Assembly (NCBI RefSeq): GCF_014695375.1
Contig: NZ_JACJOG010000027.1
Location: 1 to 64,000 of the forward strand
Length of the DNA stretch: 64,000 nucleotides
Source of the DNA: Coleofasciculus sp. FACHB-T130
GTDB lineage: Bacteria; Cyanobacteriota; Cyanobacteriia; Cyanobacteriales; FACHB-T130
Reading direction: 5' to 3'
Under the pieces are notes generated by a model. The model had not been told where the DNA came from and searched no databases. It worked only from the letters and a program-made list of their open reading frames with translations. A program made the position numbers and the translations under genes. Positions within the stretch are counted from its first letter, which is position 1; every line of letters begins with the position of its first letter. Shown here piece after piece: positions 837 to 54,949 of the stretch.

Positions 837-3800
837 TTACAAATTCGCCCCCCTCACCGACTGTTTCGACAAATCCCCATAAATACTCGCCGCATCTCTT
901 ACGGGGCTTGCCGTTGAGACGTTTAGGTTGGTGGGGCGACTCGCCATGCCAGAGATGTTCTCGTTGAGCTTCCTAAGCTCTTCCACCACGTCTTTATTGC
1001 CAATCTTGGCAGAAGCCATCGTCGCTTGTACTCGCATTGGGTTAACATCTCTAAGCTGACCCGCTAGCTGGGCGATGTCCCCCATCCCGTTTTGCTGCAA
1101 CATCATCGAGAAGAAGGGGTTGTCCTTCATGGACATGGCTGCTTGGATGAGATTTGATTTCTGATCGCCAGGAGCGTTGATGGAATTAGAGAAATCATTG
1201 CGGGCTTGCCGTTGCTGCTCCCACTCCTGGCTGCCGACTCTGACGGTGTATCCCGCCTGAGCCGCTGCATTTTCCGCCAGCCGTTTCGAGGCTCTTTCGG
1301 CACGTTCCAGTTGAGCCGCATTTTGACGGGCAGCTTCCGATGCGCCAAACTGCGATCGCTCCATCTGCTGCTGAACGCTGAGCGTTTTTCGGGCATTGTC
1401 AAAGAGTTCCGCTTGCTGGTTAAGACTGCCCTCTTGTAGGGCAAGATTATCCCTGGATAATCCCAACCCTTCTTGAGCGATTTTAAGCTTGGAATCGGCG
1501 TCTGCCAAAGCTCTATCCTTCTGTCTGGGGTCTTCAATTCGCTCTGCTTTCTTCCTTTCGCCCTCAGCTGCTTGGACTGCGGCACGAGCCTCCAAGTCGG
1601 CTTTCTTAGCGGCAAAGTAAGCTTGCCGCGCTTGCATATCTGTGCGCCGCAGGTCAATTTCTAGCATCATTCGAGCGTGTTGCTGTTCGGCTTTAATTGC
1701 TTCAGCCTTAGCCGCTGCGATTTGACTTTCCAGCGCTTGACGCCTATCTAGAATCGCTAATTCAAATTCAGCCAGCTTGGCTTTTGCCGCTTCACCAGCG
1801 CTGCCCGATTCTTTAGATTGAGCCACAAGCGATCGCAGTTGTTCGGGATCGACAGCAACACCAGCGGCGCGAATTTGACTGACAATCACATCTTTGAGGT
1901 TAGCTGTGGCTTTACTGGCGAGGGATGAGCCAGCCTTATTGAGCAGCCCATCTTCGCTCAGCAGCCGCCCAAATAGTTCCTCCGCCCTTTTGATTGGCTC
2001 CAGTGCTGTTTCACCAGAAGCAACTTTGGCGTCGGACATTGCCTTGGATAAGTTGCGACGGCTTTCAAGGATGCTCTTGAGTTGGTCGTCAACCTTGAGC
2101 CAGTAGTCATACTCGCGACCTTGCAGATCCAGGTGGTTTTGCTGTTCCTCGGTGATGCGTTGTTGCTGACGAATTTGATCGTCTAATGCATCTGCTGCTT
2201 CTTCTCTAATTCGCTTTTGAGTGGCAAGACGCTGCTCGACTGCTTGAGTGAGCTGGGTTTCGAGTTGTCCTTCCAGTTGCCTGCGCTCAGCCGTGGAGAT
2301 GTTTTGCTGAAGCTTCTCCCTGGTGAGGGCGATCTCCTGGGAGAGCGTGCGTTGGGCGATCGCTTCCAGTGCCGTAGCTGTCTCGCGTTCGCTTTTTCCA
2401 CCTCCGAGCTGAGTTTCTTTAGCCGCGCGAATTGCTTGCTGATTATCCATAGCAACCCGCGACTCAGCTTCGGCATTCGCTTCGTCTCTCAGTCGCTTTT
2501 CTCGCGCCAGCTGTTGGTCGAGGATTTGCAGGTATTGACCCGCGATTTGCTGCTGAATTTGTAATTTTTCGGTGGCAACTTCCCTGGCGGTTTTTACCCC
2601 CTGTCGCTCCAGCGCGTCTAACTGGGCGAGTTTCTGCTTATTTAGGTCGATCTCCCGGTAAGCACTGTCCTCTTGGACGGTGTCTAACTGTGATGCCGCC
2701 TGGGTTTCGTTGAGCTTGCCGCCGAGCTGTCTCTCCTTGACGGCGATGGAGCGGTTCTGCCCGATGCGCTGAAGGACTCCCGCCGCTTGAGAGTTGGCAA
2801 ATTCCAGATCCGCCAAGATGCGCTGATTAACTTGATCTCGAAGCTGTAATTCCTGCTCTACTTTTTGCTTTTTAAGGTCGGAGAGCTGTACCGTCAATTC
2901 CCGCTCTTTATCATGGAACTGAGTCGCGCTAATTTTTCCTTGCAGGAATGCATCGTGGTAAGCCTTGCGCTGGTTCCAGATGCTGGCAATTTGTCTATCG
3001 GTATTCAGAATAGAAATTTTACTGATTTCTTCAGATGCCTGTTGTTCTGTTAGCAGCCGCGCTTGCTGTTGGCGACGAATCAGGATTATCTCGCGGGCTT
3101 CTTTTTGCTTGTTTAAAGCATCTTGATAGGCGATTTGCCTCTGTGTATTTTTTTCAAAAGCTGCCCCGCTCAACTCCATCCCTTGAACTTGATTGTCGGC
3201 AACCTGTCCTTCTGTTTGAGCGAGTTCTACGCTTTTTTGGGCAACCGTTTTTCGGGTTTCTTTAATGAGTTCTGTTTGTTCTTTGTTCGGATTAGGAATC
3301 GCCAGTAATTCTCTAAGCTGTTTTTTGCGAACTTCTACAAAGTCTTCTAGCGCCTCTTGTCTGCGCTTGAGCAATCTTTCCTCTTGAGCGTTGACGAGGA
3401 TGGGTGCCTGGTCTTTCGTTAAAGAGCCATCCGCAATTCTCTTTTTGATGTCGGTTTGACCTTTGATACTGTCAAGCTGTAGTTTTTCAAATGTAGATTC
3501 TAAAGCGGTGTTGCTCTTCTCTATTTCCGTTTTAACCTGGGAGAACTGTTTGCCTAGAGGAGATAAATCTAAAGCATTTAATTCTTGCAGTTTTGCCTTC
3601 GCTTCTTGTGCTTTCTTAAGAGTAGGCTCAATCAGGGCAATCATTGCATCTTTTGCCGCTTGATTATAATCACTTTTTAAGATTGATTCTTTGACATTTT
3701 CTGAAATCGCTACATTCTCAAGTGTCGCGTCGCGGAAACTGGTGATGGGCTTGCCTTCAGTTTCTCTTTGAGACAGGAGTTTCTTTATTTGCGCGTCTAT

Positions 3801-6800
3801 CTCCACTGCCTTTTTAGTAGTACCTGCACTGCCGTCCCCTGATTCCAGCAAGTCTACCCGACTCAATTGAAGTTGCTTTATTTGCTCATCTATATTTCTA
3901 ATATTTTGCAGCGATTGACCCGTTTTTGATTGATTGAAGTCTGGAGAAAGTATTTTTGACTCATCAATAGAAGTATTGATGGCATCAGCAATATTTGAAG
4001 TTCTCACCTGATTGTCATAAAACTGCTTCTCAGCGAGTGTTATTATCTGGGCATTTTTTCCAATACTTGTCCCCCTAATCATTTTAATTACGTCATCCGT
4101 CCGGAATGCACCTTCTCCAAACTGCTCTCCCAGTCCTAGGGTCAAGTCAAAACCTTTAGACTTGAAGTTTCCATACCCAGTTGCATTGTCGCTATCCCTA
4201 TCGCCTTTTTTGCCGGGAATATTTTTAACTTCATCGCCCGCATTTTTCGCCGCCTCTCTAATTTTGTTTAAATTTTCAACAGCCCTGCTGGAAAAATCGT
4301 TAAAGTCTGCTTCTAGTTCATTCTTGAAATCAGCTTTGGCGTACAGCAGGATAAGCGCAGCAAGTAGTGCGTTTATCATCAGACCTGTGTTGCTCAATCC
4401 AGCCTTCAGCGTTCCCATGGCTGAATTAAATACCCCGCCGCTACGAGCTGAGGCGAGAAAGCTTGCTCCGACCGCCTGAATCGTTGCCCATAGATGAATA
4501 AACATTGGGGCGAGGGCTAGCTTTACGAGCGCCGCCGTTTGAGCCAGCATCAAAAATAGCGCGGCATATTCAACTAGAACGCTCGGAATCATCTTCCTGA
4601 TGCCAAGCAATATATCGACAAATCCAGGCAACCCGGAAGCTTTGATTCCCGTATCAATCACCTTGGTTGTTGACCCGGTTAAGTCTTCAATTAAGCGAAT
4701 CATTCCATAGACAATATTGAACGAACCCTGCATCATGTTTTCCATGACCGAGGCTTGAGCGCCAAATATTTCATCTAGAAAGTCAGAAAATATTCCGGCT
4801 GCAAAGGGCGTAAGTGTGGCGAAAACACGCCCCAAGACGGGAATTAAAAACGCAGTGAGCTTTTGGGTAACGCCAGATCCGGTCAAGATGACGTTCAAGC
4901 CCGTCATCACCGTCGCTACCAGACCAATCGTGAAGGTGCCAAAAACAGTCACCAAGGCTTTACTATTTACCGCTGCCATCTGAAGAATATCGGCAAATAA
5001 ATTGGTAAACATTGCCATTGCTGGCCCGTAAGCATTGGCGAATCCTTCTTGGATTCCAAAGATTGCATTTTCGACTTTAACCAGCGAACTGGTAAAGCTA
5101 ATTCCCGCTTCTTGAGCCGCGCCTCCAAACTCTTCTTTCATTTGTTTGGCGAGTTTTGGCAGCACCTCCTCGGACATAAGAGCGCCACTTTCTAGCATGG
5201 CGTTGAATTCGGGAACGGAAACTTTTAAAGCTCTTGCAAATAGTCCAATGGCTCCGGGTAATTTTTCCGCAAGCTGAAGGCGCACTTCCTCGGCGCTTAT
5301 TTTGCCCTTACTCAACATTTGGGTAAATGCGAACATTACCCCGTTGATATCTTGTTGGTTGAATTTTAAGGACTTAGAAGTGATTGCGATCGCTTCAAAA
5401 AGCTCTTTTATTTTTTCCCCTTCTAGCGTCGTTTTTTCAGCGGCAATACTAAGCTTTGAAAATTGCTCTAAGGAGGCAACCAAAGGGACATTTAAATTAT
5501 CAGAAATACCGCGAACAAACTTCATTTCAGAAGTTGCGCCTTCCTTTGACCCTGCCGACACTTCAAACCGCTTCTGAATTGGCTCTAAGCGCTGTAGGGT
5601 CTGCGAAATGGTCGATACAATCGGGGCGAGGAAGTTTGCTGCCATCCCTCCTGCTGCAATCATCGGAATCAGCGGCGTGAGCATGGGTAGCAGTGCCGCT
5701 GCTGAAGCTGCTGGGTTGGCAAGAATCGCCCCAGAGGCGAAAAAGCCGGTTGCCTCCGAAACCATCGAGCGCCTTTCTTTCCCGTCCATCTGTGGCGTAA
5801 GACGGGCAAAGCGCCGATAAAATTTCGCCTCCAAACCGCGCCAAAACCGCTCGGAATTCCCCAGCTCCGATTCCGAAAAGATTGGCGATACTTTCGACGG
5901 GGCAGAAGGGTCGTTGATGGGCTTAATCTTGACTTTGGGATTGCTGCCGAGTATTTCAGAAAGGCGGGGCGCTAACTTCTTAAAAGCAATTTCCTCAAAG
6001 GCTTTCGCGTCCTTCTCTAAGCTTTTAATCGCTTTTTCGATATCTTTGGGGAGTTTTTTGCCGAAAACCTCTTCATACTTCTTGCGAAATTCGCTGACCG
6101 AAGCGACGACTGCCCGCATATCGTCGGGCTTGCCACTTGACAAGGAAACACCAGCTTTCGCCCCTTTGGCGATATCAAACTCTGAAAGCTTCCCGGATCT
6201 GAGTTGCAAGGCATGGCGTAACTCGTGAGCGATCGCCTTGAATACTTCTTCGGATAATTTCCCGGCTTGCAGCTCTCTTTGGGCGGTGCCCGACAAGGTG
6301 ACGGAGTTATCTTTTCTGTTATAGAGTCCATCGCCCGCTGCCATCTGGCGATCGAATTTAAGCTGCGGCAGAACGGCTTTGGATACCCCGGATAGTCTAG
6401 CGATTTCGCTAAAGATTCGCGCAAAATTAGTTTGAGCCAGTTCCGCTTGACTGGTTGCCAAACCTGCCTGCCCTGTTCCAACTCTAGATAGAGGAATGCT
6501 TAGGGATTCAAAACCGGCTTTTTGAGTGGTTCTTTGAGTTTTAAATAATTCTCCTTTGAGTTTTAGCTCTAAATTTGCTAGCTTACTTTTCGTGTTATTC
6601 AGGGAGACAAGACTTCGCTTTACCTCGTCAGGCAGCGATTCGTTGGCAATATCCTTGGCAATTCTTTCTCTGATTTCCGCCGTCTTTTTTAATAAATCGT
6701 TAAATTCTTTTGAGGTTGCTTTGCCGGATTGCTGAAGTGCCGTCAATCGCTGCTCAATTTTTAACCGAGCAGAACTGATTTGACTTTTGGCTTCTAGGGC

Positions 6801-30111: not shown

Positions 30112-32490
30112 TTATCCTCTTTTTCGTTGCTCAATCTCTGCGATGGGTAACAACAAGGTATCCTCTATCTCCTGTCGTACCTCACGACTTACATAACAAT
30201 CACTATTCAGGCACTGCACTAGCAACTTATTAGCATCGTAATACTGCTTCAATAATTCCTTTTGTTGTTTGCTGAATTGCCAATCGTAACCAATATTACA
30301 ATACTTAATCATCACGGCTCTTAATTGCTCAGTCCAAGCTTGACCCTTAGCTTTCCACCATGGCTTATTTTGTTTCCATTCTTTCGATTTAGGTAATTGA
30401 TCTCTAAGCTGTTGCAGCGAGTTCTTTAGTTCTGACTCGCTGTCTAGGACGAGGTCGAGGGCACAGTCGAGGGTGTGATCGCAGTCGTGGGCGCGGGCGC
30501 GTTTGAGGTCGAGGGCGACGACGAGGTCGAGGGCGTGGGCGCTGTCGAGGACCAGGTCGAGGGCGAGGGCGAGGTTGAGGGCGTGGTCGAGGGCGTGGTC
30601 GAGGGCGCGGGTGAGGGCGCGGGCGTGGTCGAGGTCGAAGACGCGGGCGAGGGCGCAGTCGAGGTCGCGGTTGAGGTCGCGGTCAAGGGCGCGGGCGAGG
30701 TCGCGGTTGAGGTCGCGGTCGGCGGAGTAAAAAGCGCGGACTGCTGCTGACTTATACTTATATGGAATTTGGACTGACAGAGATTTCTTACTTACCCACA
30801 TTAGGAACTGCTGCAACTTCTCATCAGCAGCTACAATCCTATCAACTTGATGTTTCATTAACTGTAGTAAACGATCTGCACTGGGCGACATCCCAACCGC
30901 TAGAAAGAAAACTTCTCGCCAGCGTTTTTCGGTAATGTGATTAACCAGACCTTGCAACGCTTCCTCTGATGACTGTTTTACAACAACAATTTCTCTAGCT
31001 GTGAAATACTCGTGAAATGTCAGATGGGAAAACGAGTAAATTGATTTAGCTCGTTCCACTAATAGCCCGTGTTGATATTCAATTGAGCGCAAAACTACCT
31101 CACTGTCCAGTTGCAATGCTTCCGGGTCAGCATTGGCATTGGGTAAATTACGGATGTAATCTGTGATGTATTGCTCTGCAACTTTCTGCTTGAAGAAATA
31201 GTCACTTTGCTCAAAGGTAGTTAGGGCAATTTTGCTCAGCATATCTTCCTTACGCTGAACCGATAGCTTTTTGTAAACCTGATCGCGTTGAATCCCGCGC
31301 TTAGCATCCCATTTTTTCAGCAGCGCATCCAGTCCTTCTTTGTATAGTTCAGAACGATTCGCCGGAAAATCCCCTGACTCTTCAAATGCCAAACATAGCA
31401 ACGTTAGCAGTAGCGGACTGGCGGCTAGTTGTTTGATTCGGTTATTGTCTTCGAGGCGTTTAATAAAAGTTTCTGGTTTTACAGCTTTATTCTTAAACCA
31501 GTTGTTTGCAAAGGTAGCAATTTGTTCATCATCAAAATCGGCAACTTCTACCTCTGTAAATTTCTCAAAGGTATATTCTCGCGCTGCAATTCGGCAGGTT
31601 ATCACAAAGTAGTTTTCACGATACTGATCGGAGAAATCCCGAATCTCCTTTAAGACGCGCTGATTGTCTTCCTCTCTAACTTCATCCAGCCCATCAAGTA
31701 AAATCAATGCCCTGCTGCGTTCAATTACATCTTGTAGAGACGCGATAACCCTTGTCTCTCCAACCCCGCAGCCCACGAATTGCTGACTGATATATTCCAA
31801 TAAGCTCGGTTTGTTGGCGGCTTCAGCAAAGTCTTTGAGAGTGACAAAAATCGGTACGCGATCAGCCTGAAACTCACCCTGATTGCACTGAATCGCTAAA
31901 TATTTCAAAAATGTGGTTTTACCTGCTCCGGGCTTCCCCAAGATCATCAGCTTGGGATGTTGTTTGACCGCATCCAGTCCTGGCACTCGTTTTTCACTAA
32001 TTTTGCCCAGTCCAAAGCGCTCAACATCCTCAAAGTTGCACTCTTTCAGTAATTCAGTAATCTCTTTGCGCCTGCGCCCAGTAATTTTCTCCAGAATGTT
32101 GACGTTGGTGTAGATATCATTCAACCCAATGGGGTGAGCCATATCCAGCACGCGCATTGTCCCGCAGCGTTCTTGAATGGTGGTTTCTATCTTTTTGCGT
32201 ACCTCCTGCACTAGCGCATCAATATCAATGCTCGTGTCCTGATTCTGTTGCTCTAGTTCAGGTTCGCTTGGCGGCTGGGCGACTATTTCTTCCCACTCAA
32301 AACCCAGCTTTTCGCAAATCTGCTCAAAATAGTGGCGGTCAATTCGCTCACCCTTAAAGAATTTGTAAGGGGGTTGGCGACTCATTCCTAAATCTTTTGC
32401 TAAAGCCTCTTGAGTTAAGGACTTCTGTCTCAAAGCTCTTCTTGCTTTCTCAATACCTTCTGATGATGCCTGGAGCGATCGCCCTGTCAT
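30112..32490 (-). CDS. XRE-NACHT NTPase with hexad-repeat region
   Basis: 792 residues. Residues about 10-65 form a phage-repressor-like helix-turn-helix (LTQEALAKDLGMSRQPPYKFFKGE). A NACHT ATPase follows with Walker A MILGKPGAGKTTFLK (K191) and Walker B ALILLDGLDEV (261-271), and winged-helix and helical regions run to about 580. Residues 590-683 are a degenerate hexad repeat (RDLNRD, RALDRD, DHALDH, LALDLV), encoded by GAGGTC-type hexamers. A conserved C-terminal helical domain ends the protein (SKEWKQNKPWWKAKGQAW). Bacterial NACHT proteins include antiphage receptors; this fusion is a candidate for defence or signalling. Two tiny genes lie divergently upstream. Confidence 0.85.
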   Translation of the reverse strand: MTGRSLQASSEGIEKARRALRQKSLTQEALAKDLGMSRQPPYKFFKGERIDRHYFEQICEKLGFEWEEIVAQPPSEPELEQQNQDTSIDIDALVQEVRKKIETTIQERCGTMRVLDMAHPIGLNDIYTNVNILEKITGRRRKEITELLKECNFEDVERFGLGKISEKRVPGLDAVKQHPKLMILGKPGAGKTTFLKYLAIQCNQGEFQADRVPIFVTLKDFAEAANKPSLLEYISQQFVGCGVGETRVIASLQDVIERSRALILLDGLDEVREEDNQRVLKEIRDFSDQYRENYFVITCRIAAREYTFEKFTEVEVADFDDEQIATFANNWFKNKAVKPETFIKRLEDNNRIKQLAASPLLLTLLCLAFEESGDFPANRSELYKEGLDALLKKWDAKRGIQRDQVYKKLSVQRKEDMLSKIALTTFEQSDYFFKQKVAEQYITDYIRNLPNANADPEALQLDSEVVLRSIEYQHGLLVERAKSIYSFSHLTFHEYFTAREIVVVKQSSEEALQGLVNHITEKRWREVFFLAVGMSPSADRLLQLMKHQVDRIVAADEKLQQFLMWVSKKSLSVQIPYKYKSAAVRAFYSADRDLNRDLARALDRDLNRDLDCALARVFDLDHARALTRALDHALDHALNLALALDLVLDSAHALDLVVALDLKRARAHDCDHTLDCALDLVLDSESELKNSLQQLRDQLPKSKEWKQNKPWWKAKGQAWTEQLRAVMIKYCNIGYDWQFSKQQKELLKQYYDANKLLVQCLNSDCYVSREVRQEIEDTLLLPIAEIEQRKRG
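30442..30723 (-). repeat. Hexamer-based coding repeat in NACHT gene
   Basis: About 280 bases built from variants of GAGGTCGCGG and GAGGGCG-type units, coding for the D-L/A hexads. The high GC and repeat purity differ from the rest of the gene. The opposite strand stays open by repeat symmetry, which produces spurious frames. Confidence 0.75.
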
Positions 32491-40378: not shown

Positions 40379-41602
40379 ATGGTTCGAGAGCTTGAGCGAG
40401 TAATCCAGACGAGCCGGTTTCCTGAAACGGCACCGGCTGCGAATCCTGTATTTTTTAGGACGTACAGCCGTCGCACCCAATCGGGGCGCGAGACTTGGGA
40501 TGAAGTGTGCGATCGCACGATTAGGGCGTTGACGAAGCTTGGCAAGCTCACCCCTAAAGAAGCTGACACGATCGATCGCATGCAGCGCCAGATGAAAGCT
40601 CTTGCCTCTGGACGTTGGCTCTGGGTGGGCGGCAGCGAGTGGATTGAAAGACCCGAAAACTTCTCAGGAGCCTACAACTGCACCAGCACCAATGTAGTAG
40701 ACTGGCGTGCCTTCGGTCTGATGATGGATTTGGCAATGATGGGGTGTGGCACTGGAGCCGTTCTCGAACCAAAATACATTAATCAACTGCCACAAATTCG
40801 CAATCGCCTTGTGGTGACGGTACAAGGTGAGATTGGCTCTACTCCTGCGTTGCAGCGCCGCGAACTGACAGAAGTGAAAGTAGAGGGCGAAAAAGTCAAA
40901 ATTTACGTCGGAGACAGTCGCCAAGGCTGGGTTAAGTCTTATCAAACTTTGCTGGAATTATCGAGCGATGAGCGCTTCACAGCAGAAGTACAGGTATCCA
41001 TCGACCTCAGCGATGTCCGAGCAGCTGGAGAACCCCTCAAAGGCTTTGGTGGCGTTGCCAATCCGGTGAAGTTGTCAGGTCTTTACGAACGTTGCGCGTC
41101 AATTTTAAATAAAGCTCTAGGAAGGCGTCTGAATTCGGTTGAGTGCTGTTTATTAATAGATGAAGCCGCCGTTGTCGTGGTTGCTGGCAACGTCAGGCGC
41201 TCAGCTGGAATGAGGCAAGGTTCTAGCGATGATGAAAAATTTGCCGACGCGAAAGGCAATCTTTGGCAGCAAGATGAAAACGGCAACTGGCGCATCGATC
41301 CAGAACGGGATGCGCTTCGCATGGCAAATCACACTAGAGTTTTTCACCACAAACCCACTCTAGAAGAATGCCTTGCCTCTGTTCGTCAGCAGCATTATTC
41401 CGGGGAAGGCGCAATTCAATGGGCAGGAGAAGCAGTAGCAAGAGCCAACTGCGATCTATTAGAAACCCCTGAGCTGAAAACTGATTTTCTGCAAGCTTAT
41501 AGTCAAGGTAGCGCTGAACAGTGGTTAGGAGAACACTACCCCCACCTATCTCCTGATGAGATAGAGCATCGATTAGCTCGTGTTGGTTTGAATCCTTGCG
41601 GT
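40379..41602 (+). CDS. nrdJ: Class II ribonucleotide reductase, exon 1
   Basis: First 408 codons of the adenosylcobalamin-dependent ribonucleotide reductase, which makes deoxyribonucleotides. The first redox cysteine is in YNCTSTN (C101), followed by MGCGTGAVLEP. The exon ends in the catalytic NPCG (C407, G408). Read without splicing, the frame runs into a stop 21 bases into the intron. The intron sits immediately after the GGT codon, and the protein resumes with EIIGSNFHCNLSE, exactly as in uninterrupted homologues. The joined protein is 764 residues, of normal length. Confidence 0.92.
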
Positions 41603-41852
41603 AGCTTAGATTTTGCCGCCTAACCTGGGAACAGGTTAGATAGTCAGAGGGTGAATTGCTGGAAGCCTAAACACCCAAAAAGGTGCAAGGTAATCAGCAG
41701 CCAAGCTCCAGATGTAAGGCAGGTAGCCCCAGAGCTGGAGAAGGTTCAGAGACTAGACCTGCGGGAAACCAATAATGGTCAGATAGCGCCCTCCACCTAG
41801 ACCAGGTGAAGATATAGTCCGAGACCACTAGAAATAGTGGATAACAAAACTG
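41603..41852 (+). ncRNA. Group I intron in nrdJ (250 nt)
   Basis: The 5' splice site follows U41602 (end of GGT); the intron ends in G41852. P1 is formed by the exon end GCGGU with internal guide GCCGC (41615-41619), with the U-G wobble at the cleavage site. P2 is CUAACCUG/CAGGUUAG (about 41619-41640). P4-P6 is consistent with UUGCUGG and AAUCAGCAGCC. P7 pairs GACUA (41751-41755) with UAGUC (41815-41819), within the conserved AAGAUAUAGUCC box. P9 is CCACUA-GAAA-UAGUGG (41825-41840). No open reading frame is present. The landmarks are seen directly; self-splicing is inferred from the class. Confidence 0.93.
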
Positions 41853-42923
41853 GAAATCATCGGCTCAAACTTCCACTGCAACCTTTCGGAGGTTCATCTC
41901 AATCAAATTGACCCACATAACTATAAAGAACAAGAGGAAGCTTTCACGGCTGGAGCATTATCAGTCGCCTCGCTGCTCAATCACGAATTTGTCGAAGAAC
42001 GCTATCGAAAGTCACGGGAACTCGATCCAATTGTGGGAGTTTCTTTCACAGGATTATTTGATTTCTTTGTGAATGCCTTTGGTGTAGATTGGTTGCGCTG
42101 GTGGGAAGCAGGGAGACCGGAAACAGAGGCAGGACTAAGCTTTAAGAAACAGGAGCAGGAATATCTGACGCGCTGGCGGGAAACGGTGCATCAAGTGGTA
42201 TGGGATTATTGCGATCGCCACGGCATCAAACGCCCCAACCGCTGCACCACGGTTCAGCCTTCCGGGACAAAATCCTTGCTGACAGGCGCTTCACCGGGCT
42301 GGCATCCGCCAAAAGCTCAACGTTTTCTGCGCCGGATCACCTTCAGAAAGAATGACCCAGTTGCTCTGGCGTGTATTGACTACGGGTACAACGTGATTCC
42401 GTCTCAGTCTGATAAAGATGAAAACGGCAATCTCCTGAACGATCCCTTCGATCCCAGATGCTCGGAATGGCTGGTAGAAATCCCCGTTGCTGTCGCTTGG
42501 GCGGATTTACCGGGAGCCGATCAAATCGAGATTGGCAAGTTTAACGCGATCGCGCAAATGGATTTTTATATGCAAGTTCAAAAATTCTTTGTCCGTCACA
42601 ACACCTCCGCGACCATCGAGTTGCGCGAGAGCGAGATCGAAGCGTTAGGCACTCGGATTTACGAAGCAATCCGAGACGATCAGGGTTACATCTCAGCAGC
42701 GCTTCTAGCTCGCTTCGACGATCATCAGACGTTTCCGCGCTTGCCGTTTGAGCCAATCGCCAAAGAGCAGTATGAGCAGATAGTCCAGGAAGTCGAAAAG
42801 CGACGCCAGACCGAAAATTTTCATGCTGCCTTAAGTCGCTACGATTCAGGCTATTTGATGGAAGTCGGTCCCGCTGGGTGCGACTCGGATAAGTGCTTAT
42901 TCTCCGACCAAAAGTCTGGCTAG
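41853..42923 (+). CDS. nrdJ: Class II ribonucleotide reductase, exon 2
   Basis: Last 356 codons plus stop of the reductase, beginning GAA (E409). It contains FHCNLSEVHLNQIDP, the radical-domain stretch TVQPSGTKSLLTGASPGWHPP, and a C-terminal CDSDKC pair (redox cysteines). The frame continues from exon 1 after removing the 250-base intron. An internal ATG at 42033 would give only a fragment, so it is not a separate gene. Confidence 0.92.
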   Translation, partial: EIIGSNFHCNLSEVHLNQIDPHNYKEQEEAFTAGALSVASLLNHEFVEERYRKSRELDPIVGVSFTGLFDFFVNAFGVDWLRWWEAGRPETEAGLSFKKQEQEYLTRWRETVHQVVWDYCDRHGIKRPNRCTTVQPSGTKSLLTGASPGWHPPKAQRFLRRITFRKNDPVALACIDYGYNVIPSQSDKDENGNLLNDPFDPRCSEWLVEIPVAVAWADLPGADQIEIGKFNAIAQMDFYMQVQKFFVRHNTSATIELRESEIEALGTRIYEAIRDDQGYISAALLARFDDHQTFPRLPFEPIAKEQYEQIVQEVEKRRQTENFHAALSRYDSGYLMEVGPAGCDSDKCLFSDQKSG

Positions 42924-47935: not shown

Positions 47936-48020
47936 TCAAAGTTATCAATTCAGCTAGGAATTTAAAACTCAAAGCTCAAAACTCAAAATTCAAAATTCAA
48001 GATTCAAAATTCAAAACTAT
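47936..48020. repeat. Short AAAACTCAAAATTC-type tandem repeat
   Basis: A run of near-identical 7-8 base units (TCAAAAC/TCAAAAT) between tal and zwf. Such tracts recur upstream of operon genes here and vary between copies. No coding role. Confidence 0.6.
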
Positions 48021-49662: not shown

Positions 49663-49732
49663 ACAACTTAAAACTTTTTACCAATTACCTTTTTACCAAT
49701 TACCAATTACCTTTTTACCAATTACCTTTTCT
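49663..49732. repeat. CCAATTACC-type tandem repeat
   Basis: Repeats of ACCAATTACCTTTTT between zwf and opcA, in a tract that also includes GGTAATC-type complement copies at about 49567. Intergenic, non-coding. Confidence 0.55.
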
Positions 49733-54826: not shown

Positions 54827-54893
54827 TCTAGACTCTAGACTTTGGACTTTTAGACTTTAGACTTTTAGACCTTGGACTTTAGACTTTAGACTT
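54827..54893. repeat. TTTAGACTT-type tandem repeat
   Basis: Units of ACTTTAGACTTTTAGAC and ACTTTGG repeat about seven times between the cNMP-binding and HEAT-protein genes. No coding role. Confidence 0.6.
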
Positions 54894-54949
54894 GAGAACA
54901 GCCCATCGTCATTAGGGTAATCATCCAGAGTCCAGAGTCTCTAGTCCCT

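Follow-up and report, generated by a model that had tools for sequence, protein, structure and literature searches.

Standard gene calling splits the sole detectable ribonucleotide reductase (RNR) gene of the source organism. Within the whole stretch of DNA that was analysed (64 kb, hereafter the window; all coordinates are on its forward strand), a mechanical caller of open reading frames (ORFs) returned two fragments here, one of 414 amino acids ending inside an intervening sequence and one of 296 amino acids starting 60 codons beyond it, as an earlier note on this DNA had anticipated for automated annotation. When position 41602 was joined to position 41853, translation gave an uninterrupted frame of 764 amino acids, reading ...LNPCG|EIIGSNFHC... 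across the junction. Exon 1 (40379-41602) holds codons 1-408 and ends in LNPCG; exon 2 (41853-42923) runs from EIIG to the stop codon. The joined product reached 774.6 bits against TIGR02505 (cut-off 340), the equivalog model for the adenosylcobalamin-dependent reductase RTPR. Its motif GLNPCGEI aligns with C408, G409 and E410 of the Lactobacillus RTPR (structure 1L1L), and both results bear out the proposal that the gene encodes a class II enzyme, NrdJ. Because the motif falls on these residues, the insertion separates the codons that correspond to G409 and E410; it is in phase 0, at codon pair 408/409 of the present gene. In RTPR, C408 and E410 are established catalytic residues.

A protein search, the Pfam family PF02867 and the class III family PF13597 revealed no second large-subunit RNR in the genome, whose completeness is estimated at 100%. 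Since the present NrdJ likewise falls short of the PF02867 cut-off, that search is to be read as a test for class I. As no other RNR large subunit was detected, the interrupted nrdJ must be expressed. A pseudogene was disfavoured, this being the sole RNR and its exons being intact. An intein was rejected owing to an in-frame stop at codon 7 of the insert and to stops in all frames, and a frameshift owing to these same stops and to the exact phase-0 joining of the exons.

The identity of the insert was then established by model search. When the whole window was scanned with cmscan, a single Rfam family was found, the group I intron family RF00028, at 41596-41841 with 79.4 bits (E 1.5e-18), well above its gathering score of 50 bits and spanning the full model (positions 1-253). 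Coding continuity of the joined exons places the splice sites exactly, giving an intron of 250 nt at 41603-41852 whose last base is the terminal (omega) G. Hence, the group I assignment and the coordinates put forward in the earlier note, which had itself named the model search as a check, were both upheld. Its structural details were likewise recovered: P1 is formed by the exon strand GCGGU (41598-41602) and the internal guide sequence GCCGC (41615-41619), with a U.G pair at the splice site; P7 by GACUA (41751-41755), the 5' strand of the guanosine-binding helix, and UAGUC (41815-41819), the latter lying within the box AAGAUAUAGUCC; and P9 by the GAAA-capped hairpin CCACUA-GAAA-UAGUGG (41825-41840). 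As had also been stated, the intron is ORF-less, its longest frame being 58 codons. Besides, GAUUUU at 41609-41614 pairs with the first bases of the 3' exon, GAAAUC (41853-41858), as P10. The remaining elements comprise P3 (GAGGGUG at 41647-41653 with CGCCCUC at 41787-41793), P4 (UUGCUG at 41656-41661 with 41695-41700), the P8 hairpin CACCU/AGGUG (41794-41808) and, recognized from the sequence between P7 and the 3' strand of P3, a P7.1-like hairpin (GACC...GGUC, 41756-41780). By eye, GAGGG/CCCUC and GAGAG/CUCUC were seen at the position of this hairpin in the related loci L116 and L286, respectively. The window intron thus contains P1, the full series from P3 to P9, and P10. The criterion of subgroup IA is the presence of extra P7.1/P7.2 hairpins between P7 and the 3' strand of P3; in the window intron a single P7.1-like hairpin was seen there.

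The fold was further examined pair by pair in eight introns of the same type, hereafter type A, taken from the window, from genomes G003, G004, G150, G120, G010 and G534, and from the viral contig L234. P1, P3, P4, P6, P7 and P8 were paired in all eight, as was P9; five of the six P10 pairs formed in all eight and the outer pair in six; and the terminal G closed every intron. P7 was invariant. Two-sided changes that preserve pairing were found in P2, P3 (AT, CG and TA at one pair), P4 (CG and TA), P6, P8 and five of the six P9 pairs, and such compensatory changes across relatives support the group I fold. The intron with its flanks also folds 4.1 standard deviations below dinucleotide shuffles in energy (z -4.1). 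In the source genome, a second RF00028 match (70.3 bits) is the intron of a tRNA-Leu gene on the reverse strand with a UAA anticodon, as read from its flanks; ARAGORN made no call there. That intron belongs to the same family but resides in a different gene, and a 370-nt query covering the nrdJ junction found no second DNA match in the source genome.

Having observed the sequence, its fold elements, the exact coding continuity, the conserved site and the compensatory pairing, we infer that splicing occurs and is autocatalytic. P1 would set the 5' splice site after U41602, which would be attacked by a guanosine bound in P7. The freed exon 1 would then attack after the omega G at 41852, while P10 would align exon 2, yielding an nrdJ mRNA that is continuous across the NPCG|EIIG codons. 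Before splicing, the in-frame UAA that follows six intron codons (41621-41623, the seventh codon) would probably hold ribosomes off the ribozyme. With a probability of roughly 94%, the insert is a 250-nt group I intron spliced from nrdJ and a member, lacking a homing endonuclease gene, of a mobile element for which phages are likely vectors. It is highly unlikely that the insert is a degenerate relic which no longer splices, leaving either an nrdJ pseudogene or two halves that are produced independently and come together as a split enzyme. Working split RNR genes are indeed known in phages, as for nrdA of Aeromonas phage Aeh1 (as cited in PMC3653736), and ORF callers report two fragments. However, every core helix and both pairings at the splice sites are intact here and kept in eight relatives, and the genome, estimated to be complete, yielded no second RNR large subunit. 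Moreover, no start codon lies close to the 5' end of exon 2, where the first one listed is 60 codons in, and a break between G409 and E410 would part the catalytic cysteine from the glutamate.

The distribution of such interruptions was surveyed in 391 genomes of the order, of which 220 matched the junction region of NrdJ. About 44 of the matching genomes were continuous across NPCG|E, the remaining listed ones being split or partial; the comparison with intron-less homologues that had been suggested for this locus therefore yields many relatives that are continuous at the junction. In the fetched loci the splits lie exactly at codon 408/409 and are caused by two intron types, with about 70 relatives interrupted at this junction. 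Type A was found in seven sampled genomes, namely that of the window, G003, G004, G120, G150, G010 and, from another order of the class, G534; its guide is GCCGC and its exon codons are CCT TGC GGT. Type B, with guide GCCUCACG and exon codons CCG TGT GGT, occurs in about 60 genomes. Empty sites are represented by 80 uninterrupted loci, a biased sample because the ranking was by continuous match. Intein-domain inserts, open in frame, were also detected close by: within the motif as NP^C, 6 nt upstream of the intron junction (L100), and near codon 417 (L087/L090 and L186). LAGLIDADG domains are present in the inserts of L100 and L087. In L186, one gene combines a type B intron at 408/409 with the intein-like insert at 417.

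On a tree of the exon-encoded proteins, the distribution of type A needs five state changes, at least two of them on well-supported branches, and the nearest non-A neighbour of the type A genomes G120 and G150 is G104, a genome of the same genus that carries type B. Intron identity exceeded exon identity everywhere, close relatives included; in nearly every pair, vertical pairs among them, exon four-fold sites diverge about ten times faster than the introns do. Because the introns change so slowly, high intron identity alone is no proof of horizontal transfer, and an argument for transfer from intron identity versus exon four-fold sites was not upheld. The support for an exchange of introns consists of their patchy placement on the exon tree and the viral copies described below, which together suggest it. 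Overall, we consider it reasonably probable that cyanobacterial nrdJ offers, in its NPCGE codons, a common landing site at which at least two group I lineages and inteins settle and replace one another, that phages carry both intron types, and that every intron lineage keeps an early stop and dictates a set of synonymous codons of its own; of these lineages, one that is widespread in this order would be invisible to Rfam. With two lineages, sites that lack an insert, inteins close by and copies in viruses, all at one essential active-site junction sampled in hundreds of genomes, this locus by itself allows tests of how introns are exchanged, whether phages act as vectors, how exon codons are constrained and how ribosomes are excluded.

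The type B lineage (loci L088, L094-L099, L101-L115, L147-L185 and L196) gave no Rfam group I match in the two loci that were searched, with E values of up to 10 allowed. Nevertheless, among 49 short type B introns, every core position of P3 and P7 was paired in 48-49 sequences, with many compensatory types (e.g., TG, CG, GC and AT in P3, and GC, CG and AT in P7), and likewise in P9 and P9.1; P6 and P8 aligned too poorly to be counted. That type B might be an element other than a group I intron was rejected by this covariation in P3, P7 and P9. As judged from these alignments, type B is a group I lineage that escapes current Rfam models (two members tested). It resembles the window intron (e.g., in L088, L099 and L196) in its junction, in the order of the P3/P7 pseudoknot, in a P7.1-like hairpin and in a P10 with the same exon, but differs in its guide sequence, in its exon codons and in the endonuclease ORFs that some members carry; no long ORF that could encode a homing endonuclease was seen in the window intron or in any other type A copy. 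The type B intron of L159 encodes a GIY-YIG protein (41 bits). The ORFs of L094 and L171 gave weak Phage_endo_I matches below the cut-off, NUMOD3 in L094 fell just under its cut-off, and ORFs similar to these two are also present in L165, L166 and L185. Two unrelated endonuclease types, GIY-YIG and the PD-(D/E)XK-like Phage_endo_I match, are therefore associated with type B introns at one junction.

The exon codons preceding the junction also differ between the classes. In the order Pro, Cys, Gly, these codons end in T/C/T in 8/8 type A loci and in G/T/T in 61/61 type B loci, whereas their third positions were mixed in 110 intronless genes; the third base of the Asn codon just upstream was mixed in all classes (31 T and 30 C in type B). 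Pairing with the guide would explain much of this codon pattern, except for a U opposite U in type B. Alternatively, the association may merely record shared ancestry, or co-conversion of the flanks during homing, in the absence of any pairing constraint, an account that we regard as possible but rather doubtful. The mismatched base is the third base of the Cys codon, which pairing does not explain. Besides, well-supported branches provided six independent contrasts for type B, of which three to five agree with the association and none disagrees, and two for type A; the contrasts are not significant because six independent ones are too few. This account has to be set against the fixation of three third positions in all 61 type B rows, next to a free Asn position and beside introns that differ by up to about 30%.

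A second regularity shared by the introns is an early stop. All 69 introns examined hold an in-frame stop within their first seven codons; it falls on codon 1, 2, 3 or 7 and may be TAA, TAG or TGA. This pattern fits a published proposal (PMC3984707) in which a stop close to the 5' splice site prevents ribosomes from interfering with the folding of the intron. The same pattern might be taken as a sign that the spliced intron doubles as a switch, in which GTP or guanosine, temperature or translation coupling would control the supply of dNTPs. Indeed, a stop by codon 7 that persists despite its varied position and identity points to restricted ribosome entry, ribosome stalling at such stops was proposed to aid intron folding (PMC3984707), and nrdJ is the sole RNR detected. 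Yet ribosome exclusion would serve splicing without any regulation, and close relatives without the intron are common; such a switch is unlikely.

Copies of both intron types were found in viral sequences. The 63-kb IMG/VR contig L234, on which a gene for the large subunit of a terminase was identified (phrog_38, E 4e-85), carries a type A intron at 4435-4669, at the same nrdJ junction, and this copy is 97.9% identical to that of the bacterial genome G010 (L116). A type B intron lies at 3265-3513 of the 200-kb phage-like IMG/VR contig L196, where it occupies this junction in the gene for an NrdJ of 58% identity; the sampled regions of this contig encode a phage-type endolysin, a helicase and a DNA polymerase. 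Phages would thus be likely vectors of the introns, the type A intron being an endonuclease-less member of a putatively mobile element whose target is common to type B and has inteins nearby. A second viral pattern scan gave no further nrdJ introns among the matches listed, and a plasmid search gave no relevant match. Among GenBank phages, the best DNA match was the nrdA intron of Pseudoalteromonas phages J2-1 and HM1 (MF370964 and KF302034; 75% over about 98 nt). Like the window intron, it belongs to RF00028 (90.7 bits), lacks an ORF and interrupts the homologous motif (NLC-Q-EI); in contrast, its host reductase is of class I, and it splits the catalytic Cys codon behind its first base, 5 nt upstream of the position homologous to the nrdJ junction. 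Other phage genes are interrupted as well: in nrdJ of a Microcoleus phage (L190:996-3881), a short, intein-like insert follows the NPC cysteine (NPC^C), the extein reading NPC-CEI with Cys in place of the usual Gly, and psbA of cyanophage S-SRM01 (L188), which encodes the photosystem II protein D1, contains two RF00028 introns (2353-2606 and 2816-3060), L188 also carrying endonuclease genes and a PhotoRC-II RNA.

Meng, Zhang and Liu (2007, J Bacteriol 189:2150, as cited in PMC1995217, PMC12702839 and PMC4227781) reported a group I intron from Nostoc punctiforme PCC 73102, where it interrupts the RIR (nrdJ) gene. As described in these citing papers, it shares with the window intron its group I nature, a cyanobacterial RNR gene as host and a removal that is needed for the protein, but it carries an insertion sequence, whereas the window intron is 250 nt without an insert. 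Our guess is that it is of type B, the type found here in the members with large genomes of a genus in family f33. Further cyanobacterial RNR introns are cited in PMC3984707, and the RNRdb count of group I introns residing in RNR genes exceeded 100 (PMC2795772). Both the literature (PMC1995217, PMC12702839 and PMC3984707) and the loci found here hence bear out the remark of the earlier note that cyanobacterial reductases are known to harbour introns and inteins, and the window intron is a further, correctly placed case of an already known phenomenon, group I introns in cyanobacterial RNR genes. In the literature consulted, where Meng et al. (2007) is represented by the papers that cite it, no description was found of the shared junction, of a second lineage there or of viral copies, and no priority is claimed.

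Elsewhere in the window, an array of repeats in multiples of 12 bases (GGGCGCGGTCGAGGTCGA) occupies 30438-30721 and is probably a low-complexity repeat region. Short heptamer tandem repeats of the kind seen in filamentous cyanobacteria are present at 47964-48018 (AAAACTC), 49678-49726 (TTACCAA) and 54829-54897 (TAGACTT).
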